Positions 19,581 through 63,892 of a stretch of 64,000 bases of DNA are shown here, piece by piece. This stretch comes from Apus apus (taxonomy: Eukaryota; Chordata; Aves; Apodiformes; Apodidae), in the NCBI RefSeq assembly GCF_020740795.1, contig NC_067285.1, positions 109,641,652 to 109,705,651 on the forward strand. Direction: 5' to 3'. The notes under the pieces were generated by a model. That model was not told where the DNA came from, ran no database searches, and worked only from the letters and a program-made list of their open reading frames with translations. The position numbers were made by a program, and so were the translations under genes. Position 1 is the stretch's first letter; each line of letters begins with the position of its first letter.

Positions 19581-20090
19581 CTTCTGCAGCTTTTCCAGCC
19601 ACCATAATCCCGGATGTCCAGTGAAATCTTCCTCCCATCTTCTCCCAATTACTCAGCCTGATCCTTGCCAGCCTGTAATCAAGCCAAGCAGCCTTGTGGG
19701 ACACGAATGTGTTTCGTGGTTGCAGTTTGCTTGCCAGCATTTATGACATTTGGAAAGACAGTGGTGAGTCATGCGAGACAAGCTGGTAGTGCCATCTATT
19801 TTTTTATGCATGTATGTAATTAGATTTTTGCAGCACAAGAGAAAGCAGCCCCTGTCCAACTTGTCAGGAAAACGATAAAAAGGGAAAAGAAAATTCTCTT
19901 TGGCAATTTTATTTTGTTGTTTTTTTTTTTTTTTCAGCCTGACAAGTGGTTTCAACGATAGGTTTCTTAGAAGGCTTTTTGTCCTCAGCGAGTTATAAAA
20001 GAATTTCTGAGCTGTTGGTAGAAATATGTAATAGAGCCATGAAAGAGAATTGCTGGAAAGAAGTGAAGGTACTGCAGCTATTCAAACAGA

Positions 20091-20499
20091 TCATAGATTC
20101 ATGGAATCCTAGAATGGTTTGGGTTGGAAGGGATCTTCAAGGTCATCTAGTTCTGACCCCCCTGCATGGGCAGGGACACTTCCCACCAGACCAGGTTGCT
20201 CAGAGCCCCATCCAACCTGACCTTGAACACTTCCAGGGATGGAGCCCCCACAACATCCCTGGGCAACCTGGGCCAGTGTCTCACCACCCTCACACTAAAG
20301 AATTTCTACCTAGTATCTAACCTAAATCTCCCCTCTTCCAGCTTAAAACCATTACTCCTCATCCTGTCACTACAAGCCTGTGTAACAGGTCCCTCCCCAG
20401 ATTCCCTGTAGCCCATCCAGGTACTGAAAAGCCTCTGAAAGTTCTCTCTGGAGACTTTTGTTCTCCAGGCTGAACAACCCCAGCTCTCTCAGCCTGTCA
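20091..20499 (-). mobile_element. CR1 LINE, 5'-truncated
   Basis: Reversed tail, GGGTTGGAAGGGATCTTCAA, GCATGGGCAGGGACACTTCC, then the antisense ORF2 end up to the CTCTCTCAGCCTGTC block. Confidence 0.9.
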
Positions 20500-21721
20500 A
20501 ATACTGAGTCAAATACTCGGATACTGAGTCCTGGAACATTTTGTACTGACTTTTTTCCTACAGCAGTTTTGTCCATGGGCCTTCTGTGCTCTCCTTCCCC
20601 TCCAGGCATTGGTTTGTGTCATGGTGCCCACTGGTGGTCTTCTCTTCCAAGGTCAGTGAAAGCCTTTGCAACTCTCCTTGGTGGTCTCTGAAACAGATCT
20701 CTAGTGTCTACTCAAGGGGGTTCTGACTAGATTTATAGTTTTTGTCCTCCCTCACATCAGACACAGTCTTACAGTTAACACACAGAGCTAAGGGTTTGTT
20801 TTTCAGGCCACGGTGCTGAGTCATTATGCAGTTTTTGGCAGGTGACAAATGTCCACACATTTCTGATGACTCAGTTTGAGCATTTTCATACCTCTTGGGC
20901 TTGAGTTTTCCGAAGGTCTTTGAGAACCCAAAGAACACACAGGACTGAGTTACACAACCCTGCTGCAAACCCAGACCAGATATCCCCAGTCTGGACGTTT
21001 AGGTACAGAGGTGCCCATAATTAGAGAGCACTTTGGGGAATGTCAGTCTTACTCACTGGGTTTGGGTTTATTCCTCATTAACATAGGGATAAAAATACCA
21101 CGGCTCCTTCTGGGCAATGGGCTTTTGTTTGCAAAACACAGGTGAAAGTGCAGCAGGTGTAAACAAGGGGAAGGAGTGTGCTCACACTGAAAACTTGACC
21201 ATCTGATAACCAGGACATGCCCTTCTACAGGCAAAACCATTTTGCTTAGAAGTACCATCAAATTTCTGGAGAAATCTCCCCCACAAATACGAAGCATCTG
21301 CCCAGCAGCCACAAAGAGATAAACAAGCCACTTCAGAGATGTGAGCAAGCAACTTCATTAGAATACCTAGCAGATGCATGTACACTTCAGTGCAAGCTAA
21401 CCAAAGCTCCCAGAAACTCTCCTGATATGTTACAGCTGATCCTGCTGTAAAACTCGTGATTGCTTTCATGGAAACAAAAGGATATTTCCTTGCCACCCTT
21501 TCATACCTCTGTTTGAACTATGGGGTATCTCAGGCATAACTAGGGCTGTTGGATTATCTGTCAGTGTGAAAGGACTTTGATTTGACAGCATCAGATCTTT
21601 CTCCATAGGATAAAAGGTCTCCTCAAGGTGTGATGAAGATTCAGCTGGAGCTGTTCCTTGCCCTGTGGAATAAAGTCTGTCCATGGCTGAGCTGAAATGA
21701 ATTATCTGAAAAACATAATGA

Positions 21722-22038
21722 TAAGACTAGAGGAAATGGCCTGAAGTTGTATCAGGGGAGGTTTAGTCTAGATATTAGGAAGAATTTCTGTACAAAAGAG
21801 TAGCCAAACACTGGAATGGGCTACCTAGGGAGGTGGTGGAGACACCATCCCTGGAGGTATTTAAAAACTGTGTGGATGAGGCACTTCAGTACATGCTCTA
21901 GTGGGGGATGGGTTGTGGATTTTTTGGTTTGTTGTTTTGTTATGGGATTTTTTTGGGGGAGAGGAGGGGGCATTGACATGGTGATCTTAGAGATCTTTTC
22001 TAACCATGACAATTCTGTGGTTCTGGGTTATTCTGTGA
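21722..22038 (+). mobile_element. CR1 LINE 3' fragment with T/G-rich interruption
   Basis: GGAAATGGCCTGAAGTTGTA through GGAGGTATTTAAAAACTGTG matches the CR1 3' region. About 60 bp of T/G-rich sequence follows (21903-21970), then the GTGATCTTAGAGATCTTTTC and ATTCTGTG tail. Confidence 0.82.
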
Positions 22039-24889
22039 AGCAGCAACAAACAATTCAAATGCTGAAGTAGAACATTCCGGAACTGTCACCACTGCAAGTC
22101 ATGGGCAGTGTTTTGCTGTTTCTGATTCTGAACATGCTTTTCAGCTTACACATCTCAGAGCTGAAGAGAGAATCCATACTAGAGCAGAACCTTGACACAT
22201 AACCCCATATATTAATTAACTTGGTTCAGTACCCACAACCCTGCAGCTGAGTAGTCGTGAGAAAACGTACAGGGAGAGTGACCACAGGTCCTCCTGGAAA
22301 CCACACTTTGTTTGTTTGTACCAACACAAAACCTGTGGAGAGTAACAGAATAGATTTGTAAACTCATTTTCATTAACAAGCAGCTACCAAGGATACACTG
22401 TCCTCTCAACATGAGTCACACAGACTATACCTCAGGAGTTCCCCCGCAAAACCTCCCCCTTCTCTGCCCTGATCTCTGCTGCAGCTGCTCAGTCATGCTT
22501 TGTCAGAGATGACATTTCCATTCTCAGTGCCAGGAAAGACTGGGGTGGATCAACACTTGGATGGGAGACTTCTCCTGCACTTTAGAATTTGGGTTGGGAA
22601 GTTTTGAAATTACAGTTGCCCTTCTTCCTCTCCAAGTGGGATTACCCAATGACCCAGAATTGCCCCATAAGGCAAAAACTTTGAGCACTTCCATAAAAGT
22701 CTCCTGGTAGTAACAAACATCTGCTGTTCTGAGCCAGGGCAAATGTGGAGAATTGTTTTTCTTTTATTCTTTCTCTAGTTCCATAACTGTATATCCACTT
22801 CCTGCCTTGAATTAATGGGTGCTGTGATAATAAATGTCTCATAAACTCTATCCCAGGCTCCAGTCATTCCTGTGGATTTCCCTAGGAATGCTTTTGGGAT
22901 TTCTAGTTTCCTTGAAAACAAGGAGGGTCCTGATTTTTCAACAGAATGACACAGACTGCAGTTCAGCTAGGGGATGCACAAGGACATGGAGGTATTTGCA
23001 GGGTTAGAAGTTCATAAATGGAAACACTATTGGAAGCCAAACGTGGAAGGCCAGTTGGAGTATCTGCACTATTTACTTTCAGAATATAAATTAGATGCAA
23101 TGGAGACAGGAAAAGTTAGGAGTGTATATGCCTTGCACAGGCATTGGAGAAGAATGAGACCAGTTTTGGGGTCAGAGGATCAAGTGGAAGCACTGTAGAA
23201 CAGCTGAGCTAAATGCCTGCACTGGGCAATGAGAGTAATTCCTCAGTGTTCATTTTAGGACTGAATAAATCAAGGTAGAAGAATTATAAATCCCACCTGA
23301 GAGAGAAAATATAAATAGGTGGCATGTGATGAGGGAAAATGGAAGGGGAAATAGTCAGATAGAATTCATCAAGTCCAAGAAATGTCTCAGACACAACAGC
23401 ACATAAGATACTGAAAAGGCACGATCAGGGAGCACAGCAGGCACTGCGTGTCAAGGGGACTTCATTGCCTGAGCTGGTGACTAACACCATTTACACAGAA
23501 ATCAGGCATAATGTGCCAGTGCAGCCTGACAAAGAGGCACCTCAGAGGCAGCTGCCTCTGATCTGTAGTGCTGCTAGATGAGCAGTAGTTAGCAAGCAGC
23601 TTTGGTGGCTTCTGTTCATAAGCCCTGTCAATAAGCAGAGTTATTAAAGAGTTATTAAACAGTAAAGAAGACTGCTTGTTCACACCTGGTTGAATCAAAA
23701 CAGACAAGAAAGCAAACACTCATCTCTTGCTTCTGTCTTTCATGCAGCTGCCCTGAGAATGGTGTTTAACAAGGAGCAGGACCATCAGGACAGGCTCTCC
23801 CTAAAGAGACAAAGGAAGGAAAAACACAAAAACAAACCTGCTGCTCCTACAGGTCTATTTACCCAATGACATGTGATTCCCAGGCCTTTTTCATTTGTTA
23901 TTCTCTCTGCCTTTTGCAGGCCTCCTTGTGGGATGGGTTCATCATACCCCACTGCTGAAACCTTGATGTCTAAAACCAACCAAGGAAAGGGTTTCCTTCC
24001 ATCCTTCCACTTGGCAACACCACATTTTTCTGAGATCCTTCCCAGGGGTATTATCAATGCTTTCTATGTGGATATCAAGAGTAAATGAAGCCTCAAAGAG
24101 TTTCTGGGTATTTCACACCCTGTATCCTCTTGTTTGTCATTTTAAGATTTATTGCTTTCTGCCTTTGGCTGTACCTCACTGTCTGCATGACCACAGCTCT
24201 ACTACTGTTCACATTTTCTGAGATCAAGCTGATTTTGATATGCATAAGACTCTGGAATGTACGTTTCCTATTTCTCTTCTCGTTGCCAAGATCAGAAAGT
24301 CAATTAAATCCTTTCTTTCCTCACTCCTCCCTTTCCACATAGCATGGCAACCCAGGCAACCTTCTCCTGTTTGACAGCATCCTAGAAATTCTGATTATTA
24401 TTAAATCATGCCACGTTTTTTGATGGCTTGTGACATACTGGCAGGTGATGTCCACCCCAGACAACATTAATGTGAGTGATTGACACAGCATTTGCAGCTC
24501 GTTGTCCAAACTACTTTCTTCTTTTTCTGCTGTTGTCTGTTTTCTTTGACAGCTTTTCGGGATGGGTGCTATTCTGCTTGAAGAACTGCAGGCCTTTTCT
24601 GCTCTTCTCCCCTCAGTAAAAACTCTGTTTTTGGAGTCTGACAGCCTTCCTGGATTACATGAAGGCTGAGGAAGCCACAGGCAGAGGAAAGCCACCATGC
24701 CCGAGAGAGGCAGGGTGAGCCCCCTGGCTCTGGGGGGGCCGAGGGTGGGGGAGAAGGGCCGGTACCATGGACAGCGGCAGCGCCCACCTGGGCATTTCCC
24801 GCCCTGATCAGGAGCAATTAGCGCTAATTAAGGGGAGGGATGAACTATTGTTGCACTATAAATTCCAGGGAAATAGAGGAGGAGGGAAG
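22039..24889. other. Intergenic, nothing recognised
   Basis: No repeat or exon I can support. A 74-codon frame at 22974-23198 (+) has no known motif. Confidence 0.55.
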
Positions 24890-25326
24890 GGGAGGTTCAA
24901 TACTGCTAAGTGTGAGGTTCTGCACCTGGAGCAGGGCAACCTCTGGTATCAGTACAGGTTGGAGGGCAGCCCTGAGGAGAAGGACTTGGGGGTGTTGGCT
25001 GGTGAGAAGCTCAACGAGCCAGCAATGTGTGCTTGCAGCCCAGAAGCCAATCATGTCCTGGGCTGCATGGAAAGCAGCATGGCCAGCAGGTCAAGGGAGG
25101 TGATTTTGCACCTCTGCTGTGCTCTCGTGAGACCCCCACTTGCAGTGCTGGGTCCAGTTGTGGAATCCCCTGACAGAAGAAGGATGTGGAGCCGTTGGAG
25201 AGGGTCCACAGGAGGCCATAAGGGTGATCAGAGGGATGGAGCAGCTCTCCTATGAAGACAGGTAGAAAGAGTTGGGGCTGTTCAGCCTGGAGAAGTGAGA
25301 GCTCTGGGGAGACCTTATTGTGACCA
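24890..25326 (+). mobile_element. CR1 ORF2 fragment, 3' truncated
   Basis: GTTCTGCACCTGGAGCAGGG, GAGGAGAAGGACTTGGGGGT, TCCTGGGCTGCATGGAAAGC and GGGGCTGTTCAGCCTGGAGA are CR1 ORF2 blocks. The frame is interrupted and the usual tail is missing. Confidence 0.86.
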
Positions 25327-26100
25327 GTCAATGCTTCAAGGGGGCATATGAGAAAGAAGGGGAAAGTTTGAAACCTGGGAGGCCAATGACCAGCCCAGAG
25401 CTGAGGTCTTCAAGGCAGAAGATAGTAAATCCACTTTTTTTTTCTTCTTCATTTTCCCCTGACCCTGCTCAAGAGGTTTCCTCACTAGACTAGCTGAGAA
25501 AATCCTCCAAGGACATTTTTTGGTGATGGATGAAGATACAGTCCAAAACCTTAACAACTGTCTTTGGAAAACAGGTGGGAAAGGTGAGGGACTTTTGGTG
25601 ACAGCTGTTACATATAAAGAGTTAATGCATTTGCATGTGATTTCGGGTTGGTTTAGGACAGAAGCTATAGACAGTGTTTATACACTCCCAGCTTTGTGTG
25701 TGACACTCACCCAAGCTCTCAAAGAACCAGATTTTTATACCTTTCCTTGCTGAGTTTATTTTCTGCCAGATCATTGAGCTGCATCCACTGCCAGTGCCAA
25801 TCACTGCTTCCAGCCCAGACCTGCAGCTGGGTGTGGGACCCCTCCAAGCAGCCAATTTAGCTGGATTTCTCCCAGGGATGGACCTAAAAAACCCAGTTCC
25901 AACCCGGCCAGCTCTGCTCCAAAGCCCAGCTGCCGCTACCCCCCTCCCCCGAGGCAAAGAGGGGCTGGGCAGGTAACATCCCACCAAACTCTGAAGGGTG
26001 CATCTCAAAAGCTGGAATTTTCCCAGCGTGTTCAGCTGATGAGGGAAGCATCCCTCTGCTGTCAGCAGAGCCCGTCCAAACGGAACGATTTTGGAAAAAT

Positions 26101-26540
26101 CTCTACCCAGCTGGGCGGTTCCCGTGCTCGTGCTGCGGGTTAGGAAGGACGGAGTTGGAGAGAGGGAAGAAAAGCACCATTTCCACGAGGAGCCCCGGAG
26201 GGATGAGAAGCCTCCCGAAGGGGGGTGAGGGGAGGGGGGGTGGAACAGGGCGGCCCCCCCGGCTGCGGGGGGCGGGCAGTGGCCCTGCCTCCCCATCCCC
26301 GGCCACAACTGCCTCTGCTCGCCGCTCCGGCTGGGACCTCCTCTTCAGCAGGCTGCCCCCAGGTAGGTTCTGTAGCCCCTGCCCGAAGGACATCCCCCCA
26401 GACAACACTGCCTCCCCCACCCTGCTCCTTCCTCCCCGCCGAGGCAGACCCCCTTCCCGGGGAGGACCTCCTGCTCGTCCGCGAGTCATTTCTGCCTGCT
26501 CCGGGGTGATGCCGGGAGGGATGTGCCTCCAGCATCATGG
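26101..26540. promoter_or_regulatory. CpG-richer GC segment, candidate promoter / first exon
   Basis: By eye this segment is about two-thirds G+C with roughly 25 CpGs in some 420 bp, well above its CpG-poor surroundings. On the + strand it contains a good splice donor (CCCCAG then GTAGGT, exon end at about 26362). Another donor (GAAG then GTAAGG) lies at about 27081. It sits 7 kb upstream of the receptor exon that must have a 5' partner. The assignment to the receptor is inference. Several overlapping ORFs here are typical of GC-rich DNA and are not called. Confidence 0.35.
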
Positions 26541-28849
26541 AAGCTTTGCCCTCCCCGGGGGGATTTGGAGCTTTATCCCCCAAGGATGGGGATTTTGCAC
26601 CCCAGGGGTTGGGCTTTGGGTTTTTTGCCCCCCCGGGGGTTGGGGTTTGGCACCCCAGCTCATTGCTCCCCTAAAAGACCAGCAGCCCCCCCCGCCCCGC
26701 ATTTGCAGCGTGGGTGTAACTTTGCCTCGAGTTCTCCTGCTGCCATCACGCTTCAGTCTGTCCTGGCTCCTCCGATAGGTGGTTATGATAGACTTGCTTT
26801 TGCCGTGGAAGAGTGTGCACCCTGCTGGGGGTGGGGGGGGGAGATCTCAAAGGACAAACGCTTTGCTGTCTCGTAGGTGTGGGTTCGGTGTCCTGCATGG
26901 GGCAGAAACCACCAGGCATGCACAGCCAGGCTGGGAGCAGCTCCGTGGGATGGAATCGGAGAGCCCTGCGAGCTGCCGTGAGTCCCTTGTACCCTGCTGC
27001 TGGGAAAAGCACCACGCACCCAGCTCCGTGGCACTGAGCTGCTTGGAGCCAGCTGGCTGCTTTCAGAGGGCAGCTTTGAAGGTAAGGAGCACACGTTTAC
27101 CTCTGCTGGGTTTCCAGACCCGGGGCTGATCTGTTGGAGGGGTTGTAGGAGTTGTTCTGTCCTGATATGGAAGCAGAAAGAAACCACCCGTGCTCTGAGA
27201 AGTGCTGCCCTTCAAATGAGAAGGTTGGGTGGAGGAGAAAGAGAGAGAGAGAGAGCAGGAAAGTCAGTGCCAGGACTTAGCTGCTGCATGGCCTCCTTGA
27301 ATGCATGTTTTCCAGGTGGAAGTATCTCCAGGGCTGATCCTTCTCCTTTATCTCCACACCCTTGCAGACCAATGCACTGTTCAATGAATTCCTGAGCTGC
27401 TACAGGCTCTATTTGCAGCAGAGGGGAGGAGGGAAATGTGTTTTGAGGTCCTGGGGCAGGTACAGTTGCCTGCTGCCATACACGGGCTCATACTTGGTCT
27501 AGTGGAGGAGCAGACTGGCAGCAAATACATTTCCAGTTTCCATAATTCCTCTAGGATTTTAAATTGCAGTCAGCCTAGATATTGCAGAGCTTTTTTTCTT
27601 CCTTCCCTGCCATCAAAGGATACCACTTAGTGAAGAAATGAACCTTTTGTTTGGGATTTGCCTGCTGAATAAATTAGGTCAAACTTTCTGTCCATTAAAG
27701 GAAAACTGCTGAAAAGATGGAGTTTCTTCCCTCAGGCAGACGGAGAGCAGGTTCTTGCCCATCAGCTTCTGAAAGGAAGCAAAACTGAATAAATAAGAAC
27801 AATGCAAAACCATGAGTGAGATCCCTGGGAAGCTTGGGATGATCCCACATCATGGTACAATTATCCCAGGCATTTATTCCACTGATTGAAGAAGGGTCCT
27901 TACAAGAAAGGCTGAAAGACAGATGTTAAAGACACTGTGCTGTACCAGCATCACCACATGAGCTGCTGTAGCTCATAGGATAACTTAAAAGCTCCAATAT
28001 TTAATATGTGGAATTACATCCCTGGGAAGGATGGCACATCTTGCTTTGTCCCAAAGATTTCCACAGAGATATTAAGGTTGTATCATCCTCCACTTTCATG
28101 TATTGACAGTTCTCCAGATGTTTTAGGAGTAGCATTTCTTAGCAAAAGATGAGTTGCTGGCTGCTCAGTCAGAGGCAAAAGGGATGAGGGACATCAAGCT
28201 TGGGTGCTTGGCTGTGACACTGATTTCCAAGTCCTGTCTGCCTGGGGATCCTTGAAAAGGAGCCTGGAGCAGCAGAACCCTGTTGTCTACACCCTGAGTT
28301 ACAGCTCAGGATTCAAACCTAGAGTTCTAAGTTTCATCCCTTCTTTTTGTTGTTGGAGAAATCATGGAGGTCAAATGTGAAAAGTCTTGTTTCCAGCCCC
28401 TCAGCCTGTCCTTGTGTTGACCAAAAATAGTATGACCAAGAGATTTTCTCCAATTTTTTGTGAGTGTGGGCACATTTGTCTCCTGTATTTGTCCATCGTT
28501 GTGTCGTGCTCCAAGTTGTACCCAGCATTAAGCAACCTCTGGTTAGTTTCTTGCTTGAGAAGACCTTTTAACTCAGGCTGGTGGCTAAGGTGTTACTCCA
28601 GTAGCATAGACATCTTGCAAAGACGAGCTCTGATAGCTGTGTCCTACTTTTGCTTAAAGTTTGAGTGCAGTGTGTCTTCACAGATGGGTACAGAGTGTAA
28701 CATTTATAAGTGATGATCTGCTTTAATTAGAATTGTACTGATGTTGATACACACTAAACAATTGTGAGCACAGTCATTGTTTGCAGGAGAAACTTCTTGT
28801 GTCAGTGTCACCTCTAAAAGCGCCAGGCAATTAATCCAGAACTCTCATC
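26541..28849. other. Intergenic after the CpG-rich segment
   Basis: Positions 26541-26700 hold imperfect repeats of CCCC/GGGG-TTGGG words. The (GA)n tract is at 27241. No exon confirmed, although a good donor lies at about 27081. Confidence 0.5.
27241..27255. repeat. (GA)n microsatellite
   Basis: Seven or more GA units inside a purine-rich stretch. Confidence 0.85.
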
Positions 28850-29651
28850 ATCCAGAGGGACCTTGACAGGCTGGAGAGGTGGGCCAAGGCCAACATCAAG
28901 GAGTTCAACAAGGCCAAGTGCAGGGTCCTGCACCTGGGTCAGCACAACCCCAGGCACAAATACAGGCTGGGGGAGAATGGCTGGAGAGCAGTGCTGAGGA
29001 GAAGGACTTGGGGGTGGTAGTTGATGAGAAGCTCAACATGAGCCACCAGTGTGTGCTGGAGCCCAGGGAGCCAGTTGTGTCCTGGGCTGCATCAAAAGAA
29101 GTGTGGCCAGCAGGGCCAGGGAGGGGATTCTGCCCCTCTGCTCTGCTCTGGTGAGACCCCACCTGGAATACTCTGTACAGCTCAGGGGCCCTCAGCACAA
29201 GAAAGGTACAGACCTGATGGAGAGGGTCCAGAGAAGGGCCACCAAGGTGATCCAAGGCCTGGAGCAGCTCTGCTATGAAGACAGGCTGAGAGAGTTGGGG
29301 CTGTTCAGCCCGGAGAAGAGAAGGCTCTGGGGAAACCTTAGAGCACCTTCCAGTGCCTGAAGGGGCTCCAGAAAAGCTGGGGAGGGGCTTTTCATCAGAG
29401 AAGATAATGATAGGACAAGGGGTAATGGTTTTAAACTGAAAGAGGGGAGACTGAGGTTAGACATAAGGACATGAGGGTAGGAAGGTGCTGGAACAGGTTG
29501 CCCAGGGAGGTTGTGGAAGCCCCATCCCTGGAGGTGTTCAAGGCCAGGTTGGATGAGGCCTGGTCTATTGTGAAGTGTCCCTGCTCATGGCAGGGGGGTT
29601 GGAATGTGATGGTCCCTTCCAACCTTAACCATTCTATGATCCTATGATCTC
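28850..29651 (+). mobile_element. CR1 LINE, 5'-truncated with complete 3' end
   Basis: Begins CCAGAGGGACCTTGACAGGC and ends with the ATTCTATGATCCTATGATC tail. It is about 800 bp of the ORF2 end and 3' UTR. Frame pieces include RPHLEYSVQL and [15 protein letters not shown]. It is closely related to the inverted copy at 671-1545. Confidence 0.92.
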
Positions 29652-30788
29652 TCATTATTCAAAGCCTTAGACCAAAAAATTAACTTTTTTTTTTAGAATC
29701 TGAAAACATATTTTTTTGAAACCTTTAAACCTTAAGATTTGACAATGATTTTTTAAGCCATTCATTTTTCCTTACAGCTGATTTTGATTATTCATATGTT
29801 GGAGTTTATCTAAATGCTGCACCCTCTTCTGGGAAAATGTAGGGTGGTCTGGGTGGTCTTCATGTGCTGAAACTGGTTAGGGGTCAACTCACGGTGGAAA
29901 TCAAAGGACTGTTTCTAGACCCACAGAGGCTTCAGAGTTGTGAGGACACAAGCCCCTCTCAGCAGGTATGGAAGATGGCAGAGGAGCAGATGAGCTGGAA
30001 GATGGAGGTAGACCATGTCATAGCCCTTGGCAGGTTCTGTAATTTGGCTGGCTGTGTCACCAGGTGGCTTGGCCAGCCAGCAGCTCCTGTGCCATCTGTG
30101 GAAACCATGTAGGGAGGAGAACAGGCTGAAAGATTTTTCTGCCAGAAATTCTGGTGGCATTGAAATCAAACTGTTCCCCAGGAGCTCCTCCAGTTTGATG
30201 ACATCCTTAGTGAACTTGTTAGAAAGAACAGTGCAGATTGTCCTTTTTCCTTTCAGCTGGAGACAGGAATTTTTAGGTTTTATTTTTCTGGGGTGTTATC
30301 AGGATGTGAAATATTGGCCAAGAAGTATTTTAATTAAGACTGATGTAATTAAGATACCCTGTAGACTTTTGGTAGCACCTGCTCAAGGACCTACCACAGA
30401 ACTTGATGTCCAACAAACCTGCTTGTTCTTGATGTGGCAGAAGCAGAACTTCAGGTCTCAGCAAGTCCCAGCTCTGGTGAGGAGGGGCAGAAGAGGAGCT
30501 TTTTTTTCATTATTTTCTAGACAGCTTTAGTTATTTCTTGATTTTTAAAGATATTTTTATTTTTTAACTTGAAGAAAGGAAACCACTAAATCCAGGAAGT
30601 AAATAAAAGTCAGGGGAGGAAGCTGAGAATTCAGAAGGGTGAGTGGGTGTAGGTGATACACCATTCTATCCAAGGAAAAAGCCAGTTATGCTTTTAAAAA
30701 GGCTGCCCAGCCCCCCAGTCATACTGGAGTGCTTGGAAGAAGACAGGATGTGGATGGGAAGAGCCTAGTTGGTGTAGTCTCCTTGGAT

Positions 30789-31120
30789 AGTGGCCTTCCA
30801 GTACCTGAAGGGCCTACAGGAAATCTGGGGAGGGGCTTTTTACAGGGGCTTGAAGTGAGAGGACAAGGGGTAATGGTTTTAAGCTGAAAGAAGAGAAATT
30901 TAGGTTAGAGATCAGGAGGAAATTCTTCAGTGTGAGGGTGGTGAGACACTGGAACAGGCTGCCCAGGGATGCTGTGGGGGCTCCATCCCTGGAGGTGTTC
31001 AAGGGCAGGTTGGATGGGGCTCTGAGCAGCCTGTTCTAGTGGGAGGTGTCCCTGCCCATGCAGGGGGATTGGAACTGGGTGATCTTTAAGGTCCCTTCTA
31101 ACTCAAAAAATTCTGTGATT
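30789..31120 (+). mobile_element. CR1 LINE 3' fragment
   Basis: TTCCAGTACCTGAAGGGCCT, GGTAATGGTTTTAAGCTGAA, GGTGTTCAAGGGCAGGTTGG and TTCTGTGATT at the end. Confidence 0.9.
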
Positions 31121-31930
31121 TTTGAAAGATTTTCTATTTGATCCCTCAGGGGGGGCTTTTACAAAAGCTTAACAGGCCTGAGTTAAGAAGGAAGTTCATT
31201 GCATGAATAAATAATTGTCTAAAAGGTGAAATGCAGGGGGAAAGAGGGTGGTGAGTTACCATGTGGAAAAGACATCAGCTTTGCTCTTGACAGGGATAGG
31301 GGCTGGGATCTATGGAGTTCCATGTATCCTTCATAAACTGGGAAGAGTGTGAATAGTCAAGTAGTGATATTTGCAGGTGACAAAAAGTTTGATCAAGTCA
31401 CGAAGGATAAGACCTGACTTCAAGAATTGCAGAAAAACTTCTATGAGTCTCAGTGAGCATTAATATGGCAGAAGTGACTGGGATGTGAAGTGATGGACTT
31501 TGGGGAGGATGGAGAGAACTTAATTTCCTCATTTTATCCTATTTTCCTGTCTAAAGCTGTGAGCTCTGAGCTCGGGAATGAGCTCTTCAGATGGTGATAG
31601 GTGGTTCTGTGGAAAGGTCAGCTTGGTGCTAAGTGCCAATCAAAAGCAGCAAACCATGTTAGGGGTTGTTATGAAAGGGAAGAAGGACAAAACACAGAGC
31701 ATCATTATGCCCTTCTATAAACCCACAGTGGACTTACCTCTTGAAATTGTCTGCAGTTTTGGTCCCTCTCAGAAAGGATCAGGAGGGATGACCAGGAGTC
31801 CTCAGTCAATTCCATACAAGGAAGGAGCAAATGGGTGAAGGCTCCTCAGCCTGACCATGAGGTGATGAGTGGGCTGGGGATGGGACTGAGATTAAAGAGC
31901 CCATCGATGGCACCTGAGAGAGTGGATGGG

Positions 31931-32605
31931 GATTGCTGTCACGAGACCCCACCTGCAGTGCTCTGTCCAGTTCTGAGGTCCCCACTACAAGAAGAAGGCC
32001 CAGGGAGGCGATGGAGTCACCATCCCTGGAAGTGGTTAAAAGAAATATAAATGTAGTGCTTAGGGACATCATTTAAACACTGAATGGGTAGATTAGGCTA
32101 TGGTAGGGGGATTTAAGTTATGATTGGACTTGATGATCTTTGAAGTCCTTTCCAGCTGGGATGATTCTGTGATTCCAAGAACATGGAGTTGTTGGACTTA
32201 ATCCAGACAAGGGCCATGAAGATGATCAGGGGGCTGGAGCACCTCTTCTACAAAGGCAGACTGTGAGAGTTGGGGCTCTTCAGCCTGAAGAAGAGAAGGC
32301 CCTGGGGATACCTTGGAGAATCTTCCAGTACCTGAAGGAGCTACAGGAAAGCTGGGGAAGGACTTTTTAAAGGGGCAGGAAGTGATAGTGCAAGGACTAA
32401 TGGATAAAACTGGAAGAGGAAAAAATTAGGTTAGACTTTAGGAGGAAATTCTGTACTGTGAGGGTGGTGAGATCCTGGCCCAGGCTGCCCAGGAAAGCTG
32501 TGGAAACCCCATTCCTGGAAGTGTTCAAGGCCAGGTTAGATGGGGCTTGGAGCAACCTGGTCTGGTGGGAGGTGTCCCTGCTCACAGCAGGGAGGTTGGA
32601 GCTAT
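31931..32605 (+). mobile_element. Older CR1 LINE interrupted by a second CR1
   Basis: The left part (about 31931-31989) reads ACGAGACCCCACCTGCAGTG up to CCCACTACAAG. The matching continuation resumes at about 32177 with AACATGGAGTTGTTGGACTT and runs to about 32605. The interruption is a separate CR1 3' end. Confidence 0.8.
31990..32176 (+). mobile_element. CR1 3' end inserted inside another CR1
   Basis: This is a 187 bp CR1 3' end of a different subfamily, from GGCCCAGGGAGGCGATGGAG to TGATTCTGTGATTCC. AAGAA occurs on both sides (about 31988-31994 and 32177-32181) and is a possible target-site duplication. Confidence 0.75.
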
Positions 32606-32815
32606 TAATTGTGTGGTTGCTGGCAGCTCTGCATGGCCATCCAGGCTGTGTGATGGAGTTGCCCACCATAATAGTAAAAACCTCTTAACTTCAGTGCCTA
32701 GGAAGTACCAGGACAACCCAGGGCAGAGCATGTCCTGAGCAGTGAGGTCACGAAAGCAGCCAGCCTGGGCAAGGAGTCACACCTGGTCTGTGGCTGGCAA
32801 AGGTGATAATGAGAA

Positions 32816-32880
32816 TATAGAATGATAACATGGGTTGGAAGGGACCTTAAAGTTCATCTAGTTCCAACCCCTAAGCCTTG
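32816..32880 (-). mobile_element. CR1 3' tail fragment
   Basis: ATAGAATGATAACATGGGTT then GGAAGGGACCTTAAAGTTCA, the reversed CR1 3' UTR. It is about 380 bp before the first receptor exon seen. Confidence 0.78.
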
Positions 32881-33252
32881 TGGACATGAAGTGCTGTTCA
32901 GTGGGATTTAGCAGAGCTGCTTTGATTTTTGGATTTCAGTTGCTTGCTTGTGCTCTCTCTGCTCTCAGGGCTTTTCTTTGTATCACACTTCACCTGATGA
33001 TGCTTTTTTGTTGACAGGAGGGTTTTTAATTGCCATGAAGGACTTCAGCCAATGCTGCACATTTATCCTCACCCTCAGGATTTCAGACCCTTCTAATAGA
33101 CTGATAAGCCTGGGACAGTGGTGTTACAGGCACAGCAGGGTGTGTGGATTCTTGAAGCAAATAAAGCACGACCATCATTTCTGTTCTACCTTTCACAGAA
33201 GGCATGTGCATTGAAGTCCTTATTTAATTTCCCCCCCTTTCCTCTCTTTCAG

Positions 33253-33541
33253 GTTTCAACCGTGTGAAGATGCTGATGGACAAAAATGAATCCTGGTTCT
33301 CCAATTTCTCCTCTGCTGCCTCCTCCTTTGTGAAAGGAGGTGGCAGCTGGGCAGGTGTTGGCCTGCAGGAGGTAGTCATTGGGCTGATCCTTACCCTCAT
33401 TGACCTGATCACACTCCTGGGAAATACAGTTGTCTTCATCTGCCCGGTGGTGGAGAAGAGGCTGCGCACGGTCACCTATATGTTTATCATGTCCTTGGCC
33501 ATGGCAGATTTCCTTGTGGCTTGTCTGGTCATGCCCTTCAG
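33253..33541 (+). CDS. Receptor exon with start codon: N-terminus, TM1, TM2
   Basis: A pyrimidine-rich tract ending in CAG precedes 33253, and GTAAG follows 33541. The proposed start is ATG at 33270. A second in-frame ATG lies at 33276. The frame stays open back to the acceptor, so an upstream exon could add residues. The 33270 start gives a normal short extracellular N-terminus with two NxS sequons before TM1. The exon encodes residues 1-90 and two bases of codon 91. The 17 bases before the ATG are 5' UTR unless the frame starts further upstream, so at least one more 5' exon must exist. Confidence 0.85.
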
Positions 33542-36500
33542 GTAAGAAGTGCTGTGAGGTGAGATCAGACAGTGGTGTGTGTGTCCAAGGTCACCCCTCC
33601 GAGCTCAGTGGCCACAGAGTGAGCAGGGCTGGCTGGAGGTTCTCCTGCTGTGATTAGGTCTGGGCTCTCCAGAGAGCTTAACTCTGGGTCAGTGATTGTG
33701 CTTCCTTGCCTCAGTTTCCCTACCCTTTATCCCCTTGTAGTGGAGGGAGGAGACTTCCCAAGGGTGTTCTTGCTGTTGGCTACAGAGAGAGTCTGGCTGG
33801 TGGTCTGAACTAGAAAGCCAGCTCTTCAGGTGGTGCCAATGCAGTGAGTCCCCTCTTCCAGGACTAGCTGTGCTTTGCCCACGGGCCCAACATGGTCACT
33901 AGATGATTTTCCATCCTCTGAGGAATGTGAGCTGGGGGCTGTCACTGGTGTGTCAGCATTCAGTGCAACGACTGTGTTGATCCTGCTTGCATTTCAAAGG
34001 TAGTTCTAGCAAGATTCTATCTAGATTTGCTCAAGATCTTGACAAGAACAAATCTTGATAGAACAAGAAGGGAGGGCTTCAAGCTGCAACAGGGCAGGTT
34101 TAGACTGGACATTAGGAAACATTTTTTCACAGGAAGAGTGGTTAGACACTGGAACAGGCTGCCCAGGGAGCTGGTTGAGTCACCATCCCTGGATGTGTTG
34201 AAGGGTCATTTGGATGTGGTGTTGGTGGATATGGTTTAGGGGGGAACTTTGTAGAGTAGGGATGATGGTTGGACTCAGAAATGCTGAGGGTCTTGTCCAA
34301 CCTGAATAGTTCTGTGATTCTATGAAATCATGGAGTGTATTTTCCCCTTGATCTTCTTAGCCAGGAATGACTATTGAAATCAACAGAGCTGAATTCTGTG
34401 AGTTTGATTTTGCACTTCCTTAACCTTTTATTTTCTGGTAGTGGGAGAGAGAAGTAAGAAAGATCCTTACTAGCCTGAGGCAACAGATGGTTTCCTGTTT
34501 CTGAACCTGAAAGGCTATTATGGAGATGTTATTCTTCACTTTTTTTGGTGCAACACAGAATTTTGATTGGTCCTTCTGATTTGGGCAGTGTCCTGGTGGG
34601 GTTCATGGGGAAGGCAGGTGACCTTGCAAAATAACACTTTTGTCTGGATAAGTAGACTGGAAGAGTTGCAGTCTGCAGTGGGACAACCAATGGGACTGGC
34701 TGCACCTGGGGGAAATCTTGTGCCCCTGTTATCTGGCCACATTGCATGTGGGTGGCTGGCAGTGTTGACATGGGGACAAAGGCCACCCCCCCTCTGTCTG
34801 TGTAAATGCAAGGACTTGATTTTAGTATAAGTAGGGTCATTTAGGCTCCCTCTGTATTTAATGGAGGAAGAGGCACTTCAAAGGGCAGCTGTCCCTGCAT
34901 GATGTTGATATTTACAGGAGCTCCACTACCTGGCTAAACCACAGTAAAATAAATCCAGAAACCAGTTAACTCGTAGGCTCTGGCTGTCTTGGGCTGCAGA
35001 GTGGCTGCAGGTTGGTGTAAATTGGGGGGCTGCACCCTGTTTGGTGTCCTTGGAGCAGTATGAAGAGGCTGAACTCCTTTCCCAATTTGTGCTTTAGTTC
35101 TCAAGGGGCTGCCTACACTGTTGCATTTGGCACCAGGAAGCATTTTCCCAACAAGCAATTCCCAACTGAGTTATAAGTTGAGAGCATTGGGTGAAAAGAA
35201 TATAAATAGCTACAAATATCTGCTCGAGGGGCCTGAATTGCAGCTTAGTTATGCCATGATCTAACCTCTGTTGAAGTCAGGGGGAATGAGGGTTGTGCCA
35301 TCTCCACCAGACATTGTTTGGCCCTGCTGGTGGAGTAGCTCTTGGTCCACACCTTTCCCACTGTCTCAACTTTGTGTCTGTGTTACTGTCTTCAGTTGCA
35401 GTTTGCTCCTCAGTGGGCAGGTTAGCACGTGCCAGAGAGGAGGAAAAGAAATGACCTTGGGAGCCAGTTTGGCTCAGGACTAAGAGGTTTTTTGATAGGA
35501 AGGAAAACCATAGTTGTCATCTGGTGCCTTAATTTGCCAAGAGCAAGACTTTTATTTTGTTCCTGGCTTGGCTTGTTTGCAGGAGCAGGTCAGCTGTGCT
35601 TGGCCTGTCATCTGGGTGCTCCAGCCATTTCCAGGCTGAATATGTCCAGCTACTCTTTTCTTTTGCAAACATGAGTGAAACATGGAGGTGACTTCTGCTC
35701 GTACTGTGCATCTCTTTGGGCTTTTGTTATTCCTTTTGAGCCAGTGTCATTTCCAGGCTGCAGAGACTTTATGTACCAGAGAAGAGGGAACAGGCATCCA
35801 CTACCCTGTGCTGGGAGAACGTTGCTAGGGCAAGAATATCCCACCAGATGCTGAGGGGAACTAGGTACCTGGGATCTGTGTGCAGGGAAGTTCATGACAG
35901 CAGCATGGTCTGCTTCTGGAAGGTCATGGTGCTCACACCACGGGCTTTGCAGCATCTCTGGAGATAAGGAGGACTTCTCAGGAATAGCACCAAGACACCC
36001 AAGTCCATGATTAGACCCATGGTTCAACTTCTGTATGTCTTAATTTTCCATCTAGAAAAGGCTCACAAAACTTTTCCCTGTGTGTGCACTGGGATCTTCC
36101 ATGCTTCCCCTGGGGAGGCCACCAGGGTGTGGGGACAGGTTCTGCTGTAGATTAATGTTTGCTTGAATCTTTGCCTTGCATCCTGCATAACAAAATGCTT
36201 CTGAGGGCTGGGGCCCTTCAGCAGAACTGTGCCCACCTCCAGCAGTTGTGCTCAAAAATAACCTTCACAAGTAATTGTAATGATTTCTTGCTAATTAGAT
36301 GCAGGGCAGGGGTTGGTTTCTAACTCCTCTGACATCAGGTTGACTATTTTTGCCCTTGGGGACAGCAGAGCCCACTGAGCACAGAGCCCCACTTTCACTG
36401 TATTTGACCAGCAAGCTGTGAAGTTACAGGATAATTAAAGCTTTGCAGGACTAGGTGGTTACTCAGCCTTTCACATCAAATTCACACACAATGGTTATTT

Positions 36501-39131
36501 CAGCAGCACCCCAGGAGCTCCAGAAAGCTGGTGAAAGAAAGGGGAAGCAAATGGCATCTAATTGAATGCTACAGGAACATGCATCAGCCTTCCTACAGCT
36601 GCTGTGTGTTCCTTCTTTCCCTGCCCACTTCTTACAGGTCCCTCTGGACTCTGTTAGGAATAATTTTGGCATATTATCTTCTTTTTGCTGGTGTGTTTAC
36701 CCACTGGGGCGTTTGTAGCTACATAAAGGACAAGCTGCATAGGCTTCATCCTAGGCTTTTTAATTTTTTTAAAAAGCCAAGAGTCAAAATCCTTTTGTTT
36801 TGGAGCCTGAGACCAGATGAAATGTGAGTTTCTTGGAAGAGGGAGCACCTTCCATGCCCCAGGAATTGTGGATAATTTAAAAATCCCATGCTTCATAGGG
36901 CACTGGAAAAGCTGTGCTAAGCAAAGCTGGGCAGATCTAAATTTGGGGAGCTTTGGAGGTGCAAAGAACCTTTCTCAAGGTGCCCAATTAGAGTACAGGC
37001 AGGAAGCACAGGCTTGGTCTTCCTCAGCCATGCCCCACCTGTGGGTTATTGCCTTGGGGTGCACTTTGAGGATGAATCCTTGACTGAGCCTCCCTACACT
37101 GCATGCTCATCCCTCGTACCTGCACAGTAAAACATGATGTTACCTCCATGGAGTCTTGAAGACGTGCAGGAAATCACTCCTTCTAGCTTTGGTTTCTACC
37201 TCTTTTCTCTCGCAGCATCATTTACGAGGTGACGGGGATGTGGTTGTTTGGGAAGCTCTTCTGCAAAGTCTGGATCTCCTTTGATGTCATGTTCTGCACT
37301 GCATCCATCGTTACCTTGTGCTTCATTAGCCTGGACAGATACTGCTCTGTGGTGACTCCATATCACTATTCAAGAAGGATGTCCCGTGGCAGGTGAGTGG
37401 AGTTGCTCCTCACTTTGGGTCCCCCTAAATTTTCACTTGGCTGTGGCCTATATTGATGAGGGACCAAATGAGCTCTGGAGAGTTGCTGCCCAAAAGCAGA
37501 GCAATGTGTCAGAAGAATCTTTGTGTCATATAAATCTTCCCAGAAATCTTTTAATGTGGTGCAGGAGAAAAGGAGAATCCAGCTGAGCTGGTTTGATGGT
37601 GCTCCTAGGGAAGCCCTGTTTTAAGGACGGGTTGTGAAGTGGGGTAGAAACCAGTGGTGTGGGCTGACTTGTGCCTACAACTTCTGCCTGTTGCAGGAAT
37701 TCCACAGGAATTTCCCCAAAGACTAGAGGAAATGACACCCAGAAGAATGTATGTAGCAGTAGTCTCACCCCTTGTAAAACTCATATTTGTGGGGGAAAAG
37801 AGAGAAAGCAGGAGGAGTTTCTAAGCTTTTATCAAGGTTTCATGTGAAACATGGAGAAGAGGACTGCAGGGTGGGGGAGCAGGTCTGAGCACAGAGGATG
37901 CTGCAGCTGTGAGGTGCTCTGCAAGGGGCGTTCAGGCTCTTTCGGGGATGCTTTTCCCTCTGCAGGTCTGGCTGTGTATGATTTGTGGAGCGTGGGCAGT
38001 GACCAAAGAGAGGAGCAGAGTGGCAGAGCAAGGGCTGCAGCAGTGCTGAGGACCTGGTGTCCATCAGCTCCACCTCTGCTGCTGCTCAAAGGATAAGGTC
38101 ACAGCCAGATATTGAAGCTGAGACCAAACAGAAGAATCTACATGCTGTTGTTTTTAAATATTAACACAAATCCTCCATTAAACCTTTCCTCCTCCTCTTT
38201 TTTTTTTCCTTTCCAGCCAGCTCTGAGCATCCCCCACAGTGATCACAGTTCTGTAAACCACAGACCCAATGACCCAGTTGTTAGAGACAACTGCCTGTGG
38301 ACTTGTTGTACTCCAGCTTTTCTCCTGCTTGGCCACTTCTCCAAGCCCTGTGGGACTGCTGAGCAGTGATATCCCACATGGGTTACCATGGGGATTGGAT
38401 GGTACTTCTTGTTCTCTACTCAAAATAACAGGCCTTCTCTTCCCTCTCACAGATGCATCCTGATGACCTGCACAGTCTGGGTATACTCCTCCCTCATTTC
38501 CTTCCTGCCCGTCATGCAAGGCTGGAATGAGATCCCTGGGGTGGACTTCGATGCAGGCAGAGAATGCATCTTTGTCACCAACTGGATTTTTGCCATCGTG
38601 GCTTCTGCTCTGGCATTTTTTGTCCCCTTCATGGTCATGTGCAGTATGTATTTCTTCATCTACCGAGCTTCACGGCTCAAGGCCACTCGTATCATGTCTC
38701 AGACCCTGGACATCCACTATCACCCCAACAGCAAGAGGCAGAACCATCTGCAGCTGGAGAACAAGGCCACACGGACCATCAGCATTATCATCTCAGTCTT
38801 CGTGCTGTGCTGGCTGCCATACTTCGTGCTGAACGTTTGGCTCGCTGCCAGAGGCACCGACTCCACCAGCACAGTCTTGGTTGACACCTTCAAGATCATC
38901 ACTTGGTTAGGGTATTGCAACTCCACCATCAACCCAATGCTCTACGCTTTCCTGAACCGGGACTTCCAACGGGCCCTGAAGAAGCTGCTGGTTTGCAGGC
39001 ACAGGTCTCAGGTGGACATTGGAGAAGACATGGTTTCCATAGCCACATTCTCCAAGACTGCCCCAGAGCTAGAATATAGCATTATGGTGCCAGTGCCCAA
39101 CGGTGCCCTGAAGGGCAAACCCAAGCAGTAG
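33270..39131 (+). CDS. Aminergic class A GPCR, histamine H2 / 5-HT4-like (three coding exons, 375 aa)
   Basis: The coding exons are 33270-33541, 37216-37392 and 38453-39131. They total 1128 bp, both junctions are phase 2, and all splice sites are GT-AG. The product is a predicted plasma-membrane G-protein-coupled receptor for a biogenic amine. Landmarks seen: N-glycosylation sequons at N6 and N12; TM1 with N52 (1.50); LAMAD with D80 (2.50); C107 and C188 as the disulfide pair; D114 (3.32), the amine-binding aspartate; DRY at 131-133; W159 (4.50); P208 (5.50); CWLP at 269-272; W301 and Y304 (7.40 and 7.43); NPMLY at 310-314; C331 as a possible palmitoylation site. The third intracellular loop is short (about 34 residues) and the tail is 44 residues. 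The TM2-TM3 stretch resembles H2, and the ECL2 stretch [10 protein letters not shown] resembles 5-HT4. It is a convincing receptor gene, but the ligand and the orthology are not settled. Confidence 0.9.
33542..37215 (+). other. Receptor intron 1
   Basis: This intron is 3.67 kb long and bounded by GT-AG. It contains one CR1 fragment (34050-34325). I see no further exon or RNA gene in the rest. Confidence 0.8.
34050..34325 (+). mobile_element. CR1 LINE 3' fragment in receptor intron 1
   Basis: GGGCTTCAAGCTGCAACAGG, GGACATTAGGAAACATTTTT, GGCTGCCCAGGGAGCTGGTT and the GTTCTGTGATTCTATG tail. It is in the same direction as the receptor gene. Confidence 0.9.
37216..37392 (+). CDS. Receptor exon: end of TM2, TM3 and DRY motif
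   Basis: This 177 bp exon is flanked by CGCAG and GTGAGT. It encodes residues 91-150: extracellular loop 1, C107, the amine-binding D114 in TM3, the DRY motif and most of intracellular loop 2. It is too short to stand out as an ORF, but the frame joins exactly with both neighbouring exons. Confidence 0.88.
37393..38452 (+). other. Receptor intron 2
   Basis: This intron is 1.06 kb long and bounded by GTGAGT and CAG. A T-run at about 38200-38208 lies well upstream of the acceptor. I see no recognisable repeat. Confidence 0.8.
38453..39131 (+). CDS. Receptor last coding exon: TM4 to C-terminus
   Basis: The acceptor is CTCACAG before 38453 and the stop is TAG at 39129-39131. The exon encodes TM4, ECL2 with C188, TM5 with P208, a short basic ICL3, TM6 with CWLPYF, TM7 with NPMLY, helix 8 and the tail. 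The open frame extends upstream of the acceptor to 38388, but that part is intron. No AATAAA is obvious in the first 300 bases after the stop, so the 3' UTR end is not placed. Confidence 0.9.

Positions 39132-44278: not shown

Positions 44279-63892
<19,614 letters not shown>

Follow-up and report, generated by a model that had tools for sequence, protein, structure and literature searches.

An intact gene for an orphan aminergic receptor, most likely avian GPR187, beside EIF2AK3 in Apus apus

The window analysed here, a 64,000-nucleotide stretch of the Apus apus genome (contig NC_067285.1), carries a gene for a class A GPCR on the forward strand and EIF2AK3 (PERK) on the reverse strand (Table 1). 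The two genes lie tail to tail, with their matched coding ends about 5 kb apart. A preliminary description, made from the sequence alone, had already named EIF2AK3 as the neighbour of the receptor, and tblastn pieces that follow one another in order along the reverse strand confirm this; the kinase part was matched in a separate search as well, and residues before 118 of the human PERK query had no match in the window. Further GPCR copies were not found in the window, in which the receptor protein matches its own three exons only (E values of up to 1). A FOXI3-type forkhead domain likewise gave no match in the window (E threshold of 0.01). Of the 23 ORFs in positions 1–33000 that reach 130 amino acids, 10 were compared with Pfam (E up to 0.1), without a match, and Rfam at gathering scores gave none over the whole window.

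Table 1 Coordinates of the receptor gene and its neighbour in the window
Feature	Position	Strand	Description
Receptor gene	33270..39131	+	375 codons across three coding exons
Coding exon 1	33270..33541	+	272 nt; N-terminus, TM1 and TM2 up to codon 91; donor GT, phase 2
Intron 1	33542..37215	+	3674 bases; phase 2, GT-AG; interrupts codon 91 (2.61, TM2 end)
Coding exon 2	37216..37392	+	177 nt; TM2 end, ECL1, TM3 with D3.32 (residue 114) and DRY, ICL2
Intron 2	37393..38452	+	1060 bases; phase 2, GT-AG; interrupts codon 150 (position 4.41)
Coding exon 3	38453..39131	+	679 nt; TM4, ECL2, TM5-TM7 (CWLPYF, NPMLY), helix 8, C-tail; stop TAG
EIF2AK3 (PERK)	44291..63892	-	14 tblastn pieces, ordered from 63892 down to 44291; human PERK query; E 2.4e-6 to 9.1e-95

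The receptor gene is intact. Its frame had been described as complete, which holds for the 375 residues and for the exact limits of the gene, but only once the three exons are spliced. The second intron falls at the start of TM4, 9 residues ahead of W4.50. The GC3 of the coding frame is 0.71, compared with a GC content of 0.48 in the introns, and an open frame of 226 codons arose in none of 2,000 mononucleotide-shuffled intron stretches. We found no sign of a pseudogene in the gene, be it a stop, a frameshift or a missing landmark residue. The N-terminus carries two N-glycosylation sequons (N6 and N12).

Upstream, a good splice acceptor (tttcctctctttcag) lies within positions 33238–33269, ends 17 bases 5′ of the start codon and suggests that a 5′ non-coding exon precedes the coding ones. 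Some 6–7 kb 5′ of exon 1, positions 26001–27000 are GC-rich (0.61–0.65), with a CpG observed/expected ratio of 0.39–0.51 that is the maximum among the 500-base steps of 20001–34000. This interval could be the site of a promoter or a 5′ exon; the four long ORFs that overlap it had no Pfam match. Downstream, the forward strand contains no AATAAA from the receptor stop codon (39131) to 41474.

The encoded protein matches Pfam 7tm_1 (PF00001) over residues 51–314 with 212.9 bits (E = 7.1e-63), and the earlier statement that every class A landmark is present was borne out at all 19 class A and aminergic positions that were checked. From TM1 to TM4 these are N1.50, D2.50, C3.25, D3.32 (D114), I3.40, D3.49-R3.50-Y3.51 (residues 131–133) and W4.50; from ECL2 to TM7 they are C45.50, P5.50, Y5.58, F6.44, C6.47, W6.48, P6.50, N7.49, P7.50 and Y7.53. 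The domain match together with the signature residues places the protein among class A GPCRs, and D3.32 with the cage W6.48/F6.52/Y7.43 places it among the aminergic receptors.

We compared the protein with nine reference receptors, the letters of which came from PDB chains or were checked against them, with some exceptions. Across a core of 273 columns, identity is 41.4% to 5-HT7, 41.0% to 5-HT4, 39.6% to H2, 39.2% to D1, 37.0% to octopamine-beta (PDB 9m55), 35.2% to 5-HT6, 34.8% to 5-HT1A, 34.4% to beta-2 and 33.0% to TAAR1, the lowest of the nine. Pairwise identities within the references span 30.8–45.4%, so the receptor is about as distant from these families as they are from one another. 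A phmmer search of the PDB returned an HRH2 chain first (215 bits), followed by beta-1 (207.6) and 5-HT4 (199.9).

Four trees were built, one of 16 receptors, two of 10 PDB-based rows (the receptor and the nine references) under two models and one of 8 rows, and none joins the receptor to a named family with strong support. In the 16-receptor tree, in which six rows are provisional sequences, HRH2 is represented by one human sequence only and 5-HT2A is the outgroup, HRH2 is the sister of the receptor with a support of 83/80, which is not strong. The same tree places the receptor in a group (88/95) with H2, 5-HT4, TAAR1, 5-HT6, D1/D5, beta and octopamine-beta, outside which lie 5-HT7, 5-HT1, alpha-2A, D2 and 5-HT2A. 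Both 10-row trees and the 8-row tree lack the HRH2 pairing and leave the place of the receptor unfixed. AU tests on the 16-receptor tree did not reject a grouping with 5-HT4 (p = 0.181), 5-HT6 (0.16), 5-HT7 (0.163), D1/D5 (0.233) or beta (0.334); grouping with TAAR1 was borderline (10.1 log units worse, p-AU = 0.057).

The receptor could be a fast-evolving duplicate of HRH2 that still senses histamine. Besides the first PDB match and the sister position, the two proteins have in common the TM3 core DVMxCTASI, DRYC, and the residues Y2.64, C3.36, T3.37 and Y6.51, and H2 is the nearest reference over residues 90–144. However, core identity to HRH2 is not above that to HTR4 or HTR7, the branches of the receptor/HRH2 pair are each about 1.0 compared with 0.16 for D1/D5, the pairing is missing from the smaller trees, and D5.42, T5.46 and F6.55 of H2 are A, A and N here. 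The 7TM exon of human HRH2 is unbroken, whereas two introns lie inside the 7TM region of this receptor; among the matches listed in our literature search, nothing usable was found on intron positions of aminergic receptors. On balance we regard the duplicate as unlikely.

HTR4 was the other family from which the preliminary description had set the receptor apart. The two share SFLPxMQGWN, S5.43, A5.46 and N6.55, but core identity is no higher than 41.0% and 5-HT4 itself pairs with TAAR1 (94/92) in the 16-receptor tree. No fork of at least 80 pairs the receptor with HTR4 in any of the four trees, and forcing them together costs 6.4–7.0 log units (p-AU = 0.13–0.18). The claim that the receptor fits neither H2 nor 5-HT4 thus agrees with the identities to both, but the AU tests give no firm rejection of HTR4 and several other families. 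Judged from these comparisons, orthology of the receptor to HRH2 or HTR4 is unlikely; as far as the trees resolve, it looks like a lineage of its own that leans towards H2 without a firmly placed sister group.

The separateness of the receptor had originally been argued from a patchwork of likenesses, an H2-like block from TM2 to TM3 and a 5-HT4-like ECL2. Both likenesses can be seen, that to H2 with a small shift. Over residues 90–144 (TM2 end, ECL1, TM3 and ICL2), H2 is the nearest of the nine references (14/27 and 16/27), with a lead over 5-HT7 of one residue in each of the two blocks; TM2 proper (residues 63–89) is nearest to 5-HT4 (16/27). The 5-HT4-like stretch stands: residues 166–175, which run from the last part of TM4 into ECL2, are one letter away from SFLPIMQGWN of human 5-HT4, and residues 145–172 are again nearest to 5-HT4 (12 versus 8 of 27). 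For a wider test, the core was cut into 11 blocks, the last of only 3 columns, with ties given to the first name and the receptor itself eligible as a best partner for each reference. The receptor has 5 distinct best partners over these blocks and the nine references have 5–8 each. We therefore rejected a mosaic or gene-conversion origin from an H2 block and a 5-HT4 block, as the same patchwork is seen in all nine references. Equally distant paralogues yield such patchwork, so the block likenesses carry no weight for lineage.

A lineage of matching description has been published. In 2019, Rinne et al. (PMC6504862) gave the name GPR187 to an orphan clade close to HRH2; it is the sole new GPR number in the amine section of their paper, which announces 'one new orphan receptor'. 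The passages on this clade report it in lamprey (including ENSPMAP00000006842), gar, coelacanth, an amphibian and seven sauropsids, which are all of the sauropsid genomes in the paper (five bird and two reptile); mammals are not listed, and neither a function nor a genomic neighbour is stated in those passages. The earlier suggestion that the lineage may be missing from mammals agrees with this published distribution. Like GPR187, the receptor described here is an orphan near HRH2 in a sauropsid, a comparison made by description and not by sequence. From the nearest family and the published distribution, the receptor is probably GPR187. The reading that we favour, and hold to be rather probable, is that the locus carries an intact three-exon gene for an avian class A receptor of the aminergic type, an orphan that is most likely orthologous to GPR187, belongs to a lineage nearest to HRH2, and would bind an amine at D3.32 and signal through Gs and cAMP.

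The lineage thus seems to have been on record since 2019 and, in the literature searched, to be still an orphan. The expectation that it is unstudied therefore needs qualifying: no functional study of the receptor was found among the matches listed in the open-licence literature, but the clade had been named (PMC6504862, in the passages cited above). The string 'GPR187' also occurs in two other papers, on T cells in diabetes and on cannabinoids in salivation, and is absent from a review of the avian serotonin system (PMC10394247).

Rinne et al. also report a clade HTR7C (5-HT7C), again from seven sauropsids (PMC6504862), and the receptor could belong to it instead of to GPR187. HTR7 has the highest core identity of the nine, and a forced grouping with it was not rejected in the smaller set either (p = 0.182, compared with 0.163 with 16 receptors). 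Against this, the 88/95 group around the receptor does not include HTR7, and 41% identity is low for a subtype. Residues 166–169 are SFLP as in 5-HT4, 5-HT6 and beta-2 (SFIP in D1 and octopamine-beta, SFLS in H2), and HTR7 and HTR1A are one residue shorter at this point. We consider membership of HTR7C very unlikely and retain GPR187 as the probable identity.

The predicted binding pocket leads away from an H2-style fit of histamine. HRH2 holds the imidazole with D5.42 and T5.46, a pair that is absent from the receptor, in which both positions are alanine. At 5.42/5.43/5.46 the receptor has A/S/A, compared with D/G/T in human H2, S/S/S in D1 and beta-2, C/S/A in 5-HT4 and A/S/T in 5-HT6. N6.55 is common to the receptor, 5-HT4, 5-HT6, D1 and beta-2, and T7.39 recurs in only one of the nine references, 5-HT6. 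At 14 selected pocket positions, identity is 11 for 5-HT6, 10 for 5-HT4, 9 each for H2, 5-HT7, 5-HT1A and beta-2, 8 for octopamine-beta, 7 for D1 and 5 for TAAR1, margins that are small at the top (11 versus 9–10 of 14). In a second, wider set of 32 positions, the counts are 21 for 5-HT6, 20 each for 5-HT4 and 5-HT1A, 19 for D1, 18 each for octopamine-beta, beta-2 and 5-HT7, 17 for H2 and 11 for TAAR1.

This ranking raises the question of whether the receptor is a remnant of the 5-HT6 line, or arose separately and converged on the 5-HT6 pocket. In addition to the closest pocket, both proteins carry TWLGYCNST(I/M)NP in TM7, and forcing the receptor together with HTR6 costs only 0.7–2.0 log units (p = 0.16–0.31) and is not rejected. 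However, overall identity to 5-HT6 is just 35.2%, the margin in the pocket is small, 5-HT6 is a long branch of odd composition, and it differs from the receptor within the pocket itself (T5.46, S3.37 and F6.51). Either form of a 5-HT6-like origin seems distinctly unlikely to us. A broader proposal, that the receptor represents an extra vertebrate family of serotonin or indoleamine receptors, with its own line predating the jawed vertebrates, a loss in mammals, a pocket like that of 5-HT6 and 5-HT4 and a backbone nearest to H2, may be entertained but is doubtful.

For the favoured identity as GPR187, the TM5 residues and the pocket identities are the basis of our guesses about the ligand. It is unlikely to be held as histamine is in H2, or as catecholamines are in D1 and the beta receptors. 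A serotonin-like indoleamine would be the best single guess, with about one chance in three of being right, and a trace amine the next. We propose that the amine would bind D3.32, while Y7.43 and W7.40 would close off the pocket. H2, 5-HT4, 5-HT6, D1/D5 and the beta-adrenergic receptors are mostly Gs-coupled, and the amine-bound receptor would be expected to activate Gs and raise cAMP as most of its nearest relatives do; going by kinship only, it is likely to be a Gs-coupled amine receptor. Because the gene is intact and small, standard assays should be able to identify its ligand; ordinary in build, the receptor is well suited to a ligand screen. Should birds, reptiles, amphibians and some fish rely on an additional amine receptor that mammals have lost, then mammalian receptor sets are no guide to amine signalling in birds and reptiles, and drugs or diets that act on amines may hit targets there that have no human counterpart.

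The receptor is also a candidate for a chicken locus close to a marker for vaccine antibodies. In the available portion of a study of Newcastle-disease antibody titre (PMC11066160), an 'HRH2-like' gene is listed for the marker at chromosome 4:86,115,915 with a figure of 4,290, which we read as a distance in bases, and the text describes the marker as 'contained' by that gene. The annotation is H2-like, as our receptor is, and the gene (near 86.116 Mb) is known from that source only as one listed for the marker. By annotation name, it may be the orthologue of the receptor; among the matches listed, nothing usable gave coordinates of chicken EIF2AK3 that would link it to this locus.

The surroundings of the gene are rich in repeats. 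A family of many fragments extends over 20204–58197 (direct repeats only, searched in 20000–64000), with examples at 29472–29563, 30933–31024, 34133–34224, 31032–31120 and 51172–51260, and intron 1 carries a fragment of CR1-like type near 34056–34258. The repeats, within intron 1 as well as in the flanking DNA, resemble avian CR1 elements. Across the whole window, AATAAA occurs 84 times compared with 43 expected, a count reached by none of 100 shuffles, and the excess possibly derives from repeats or poly-A tails.
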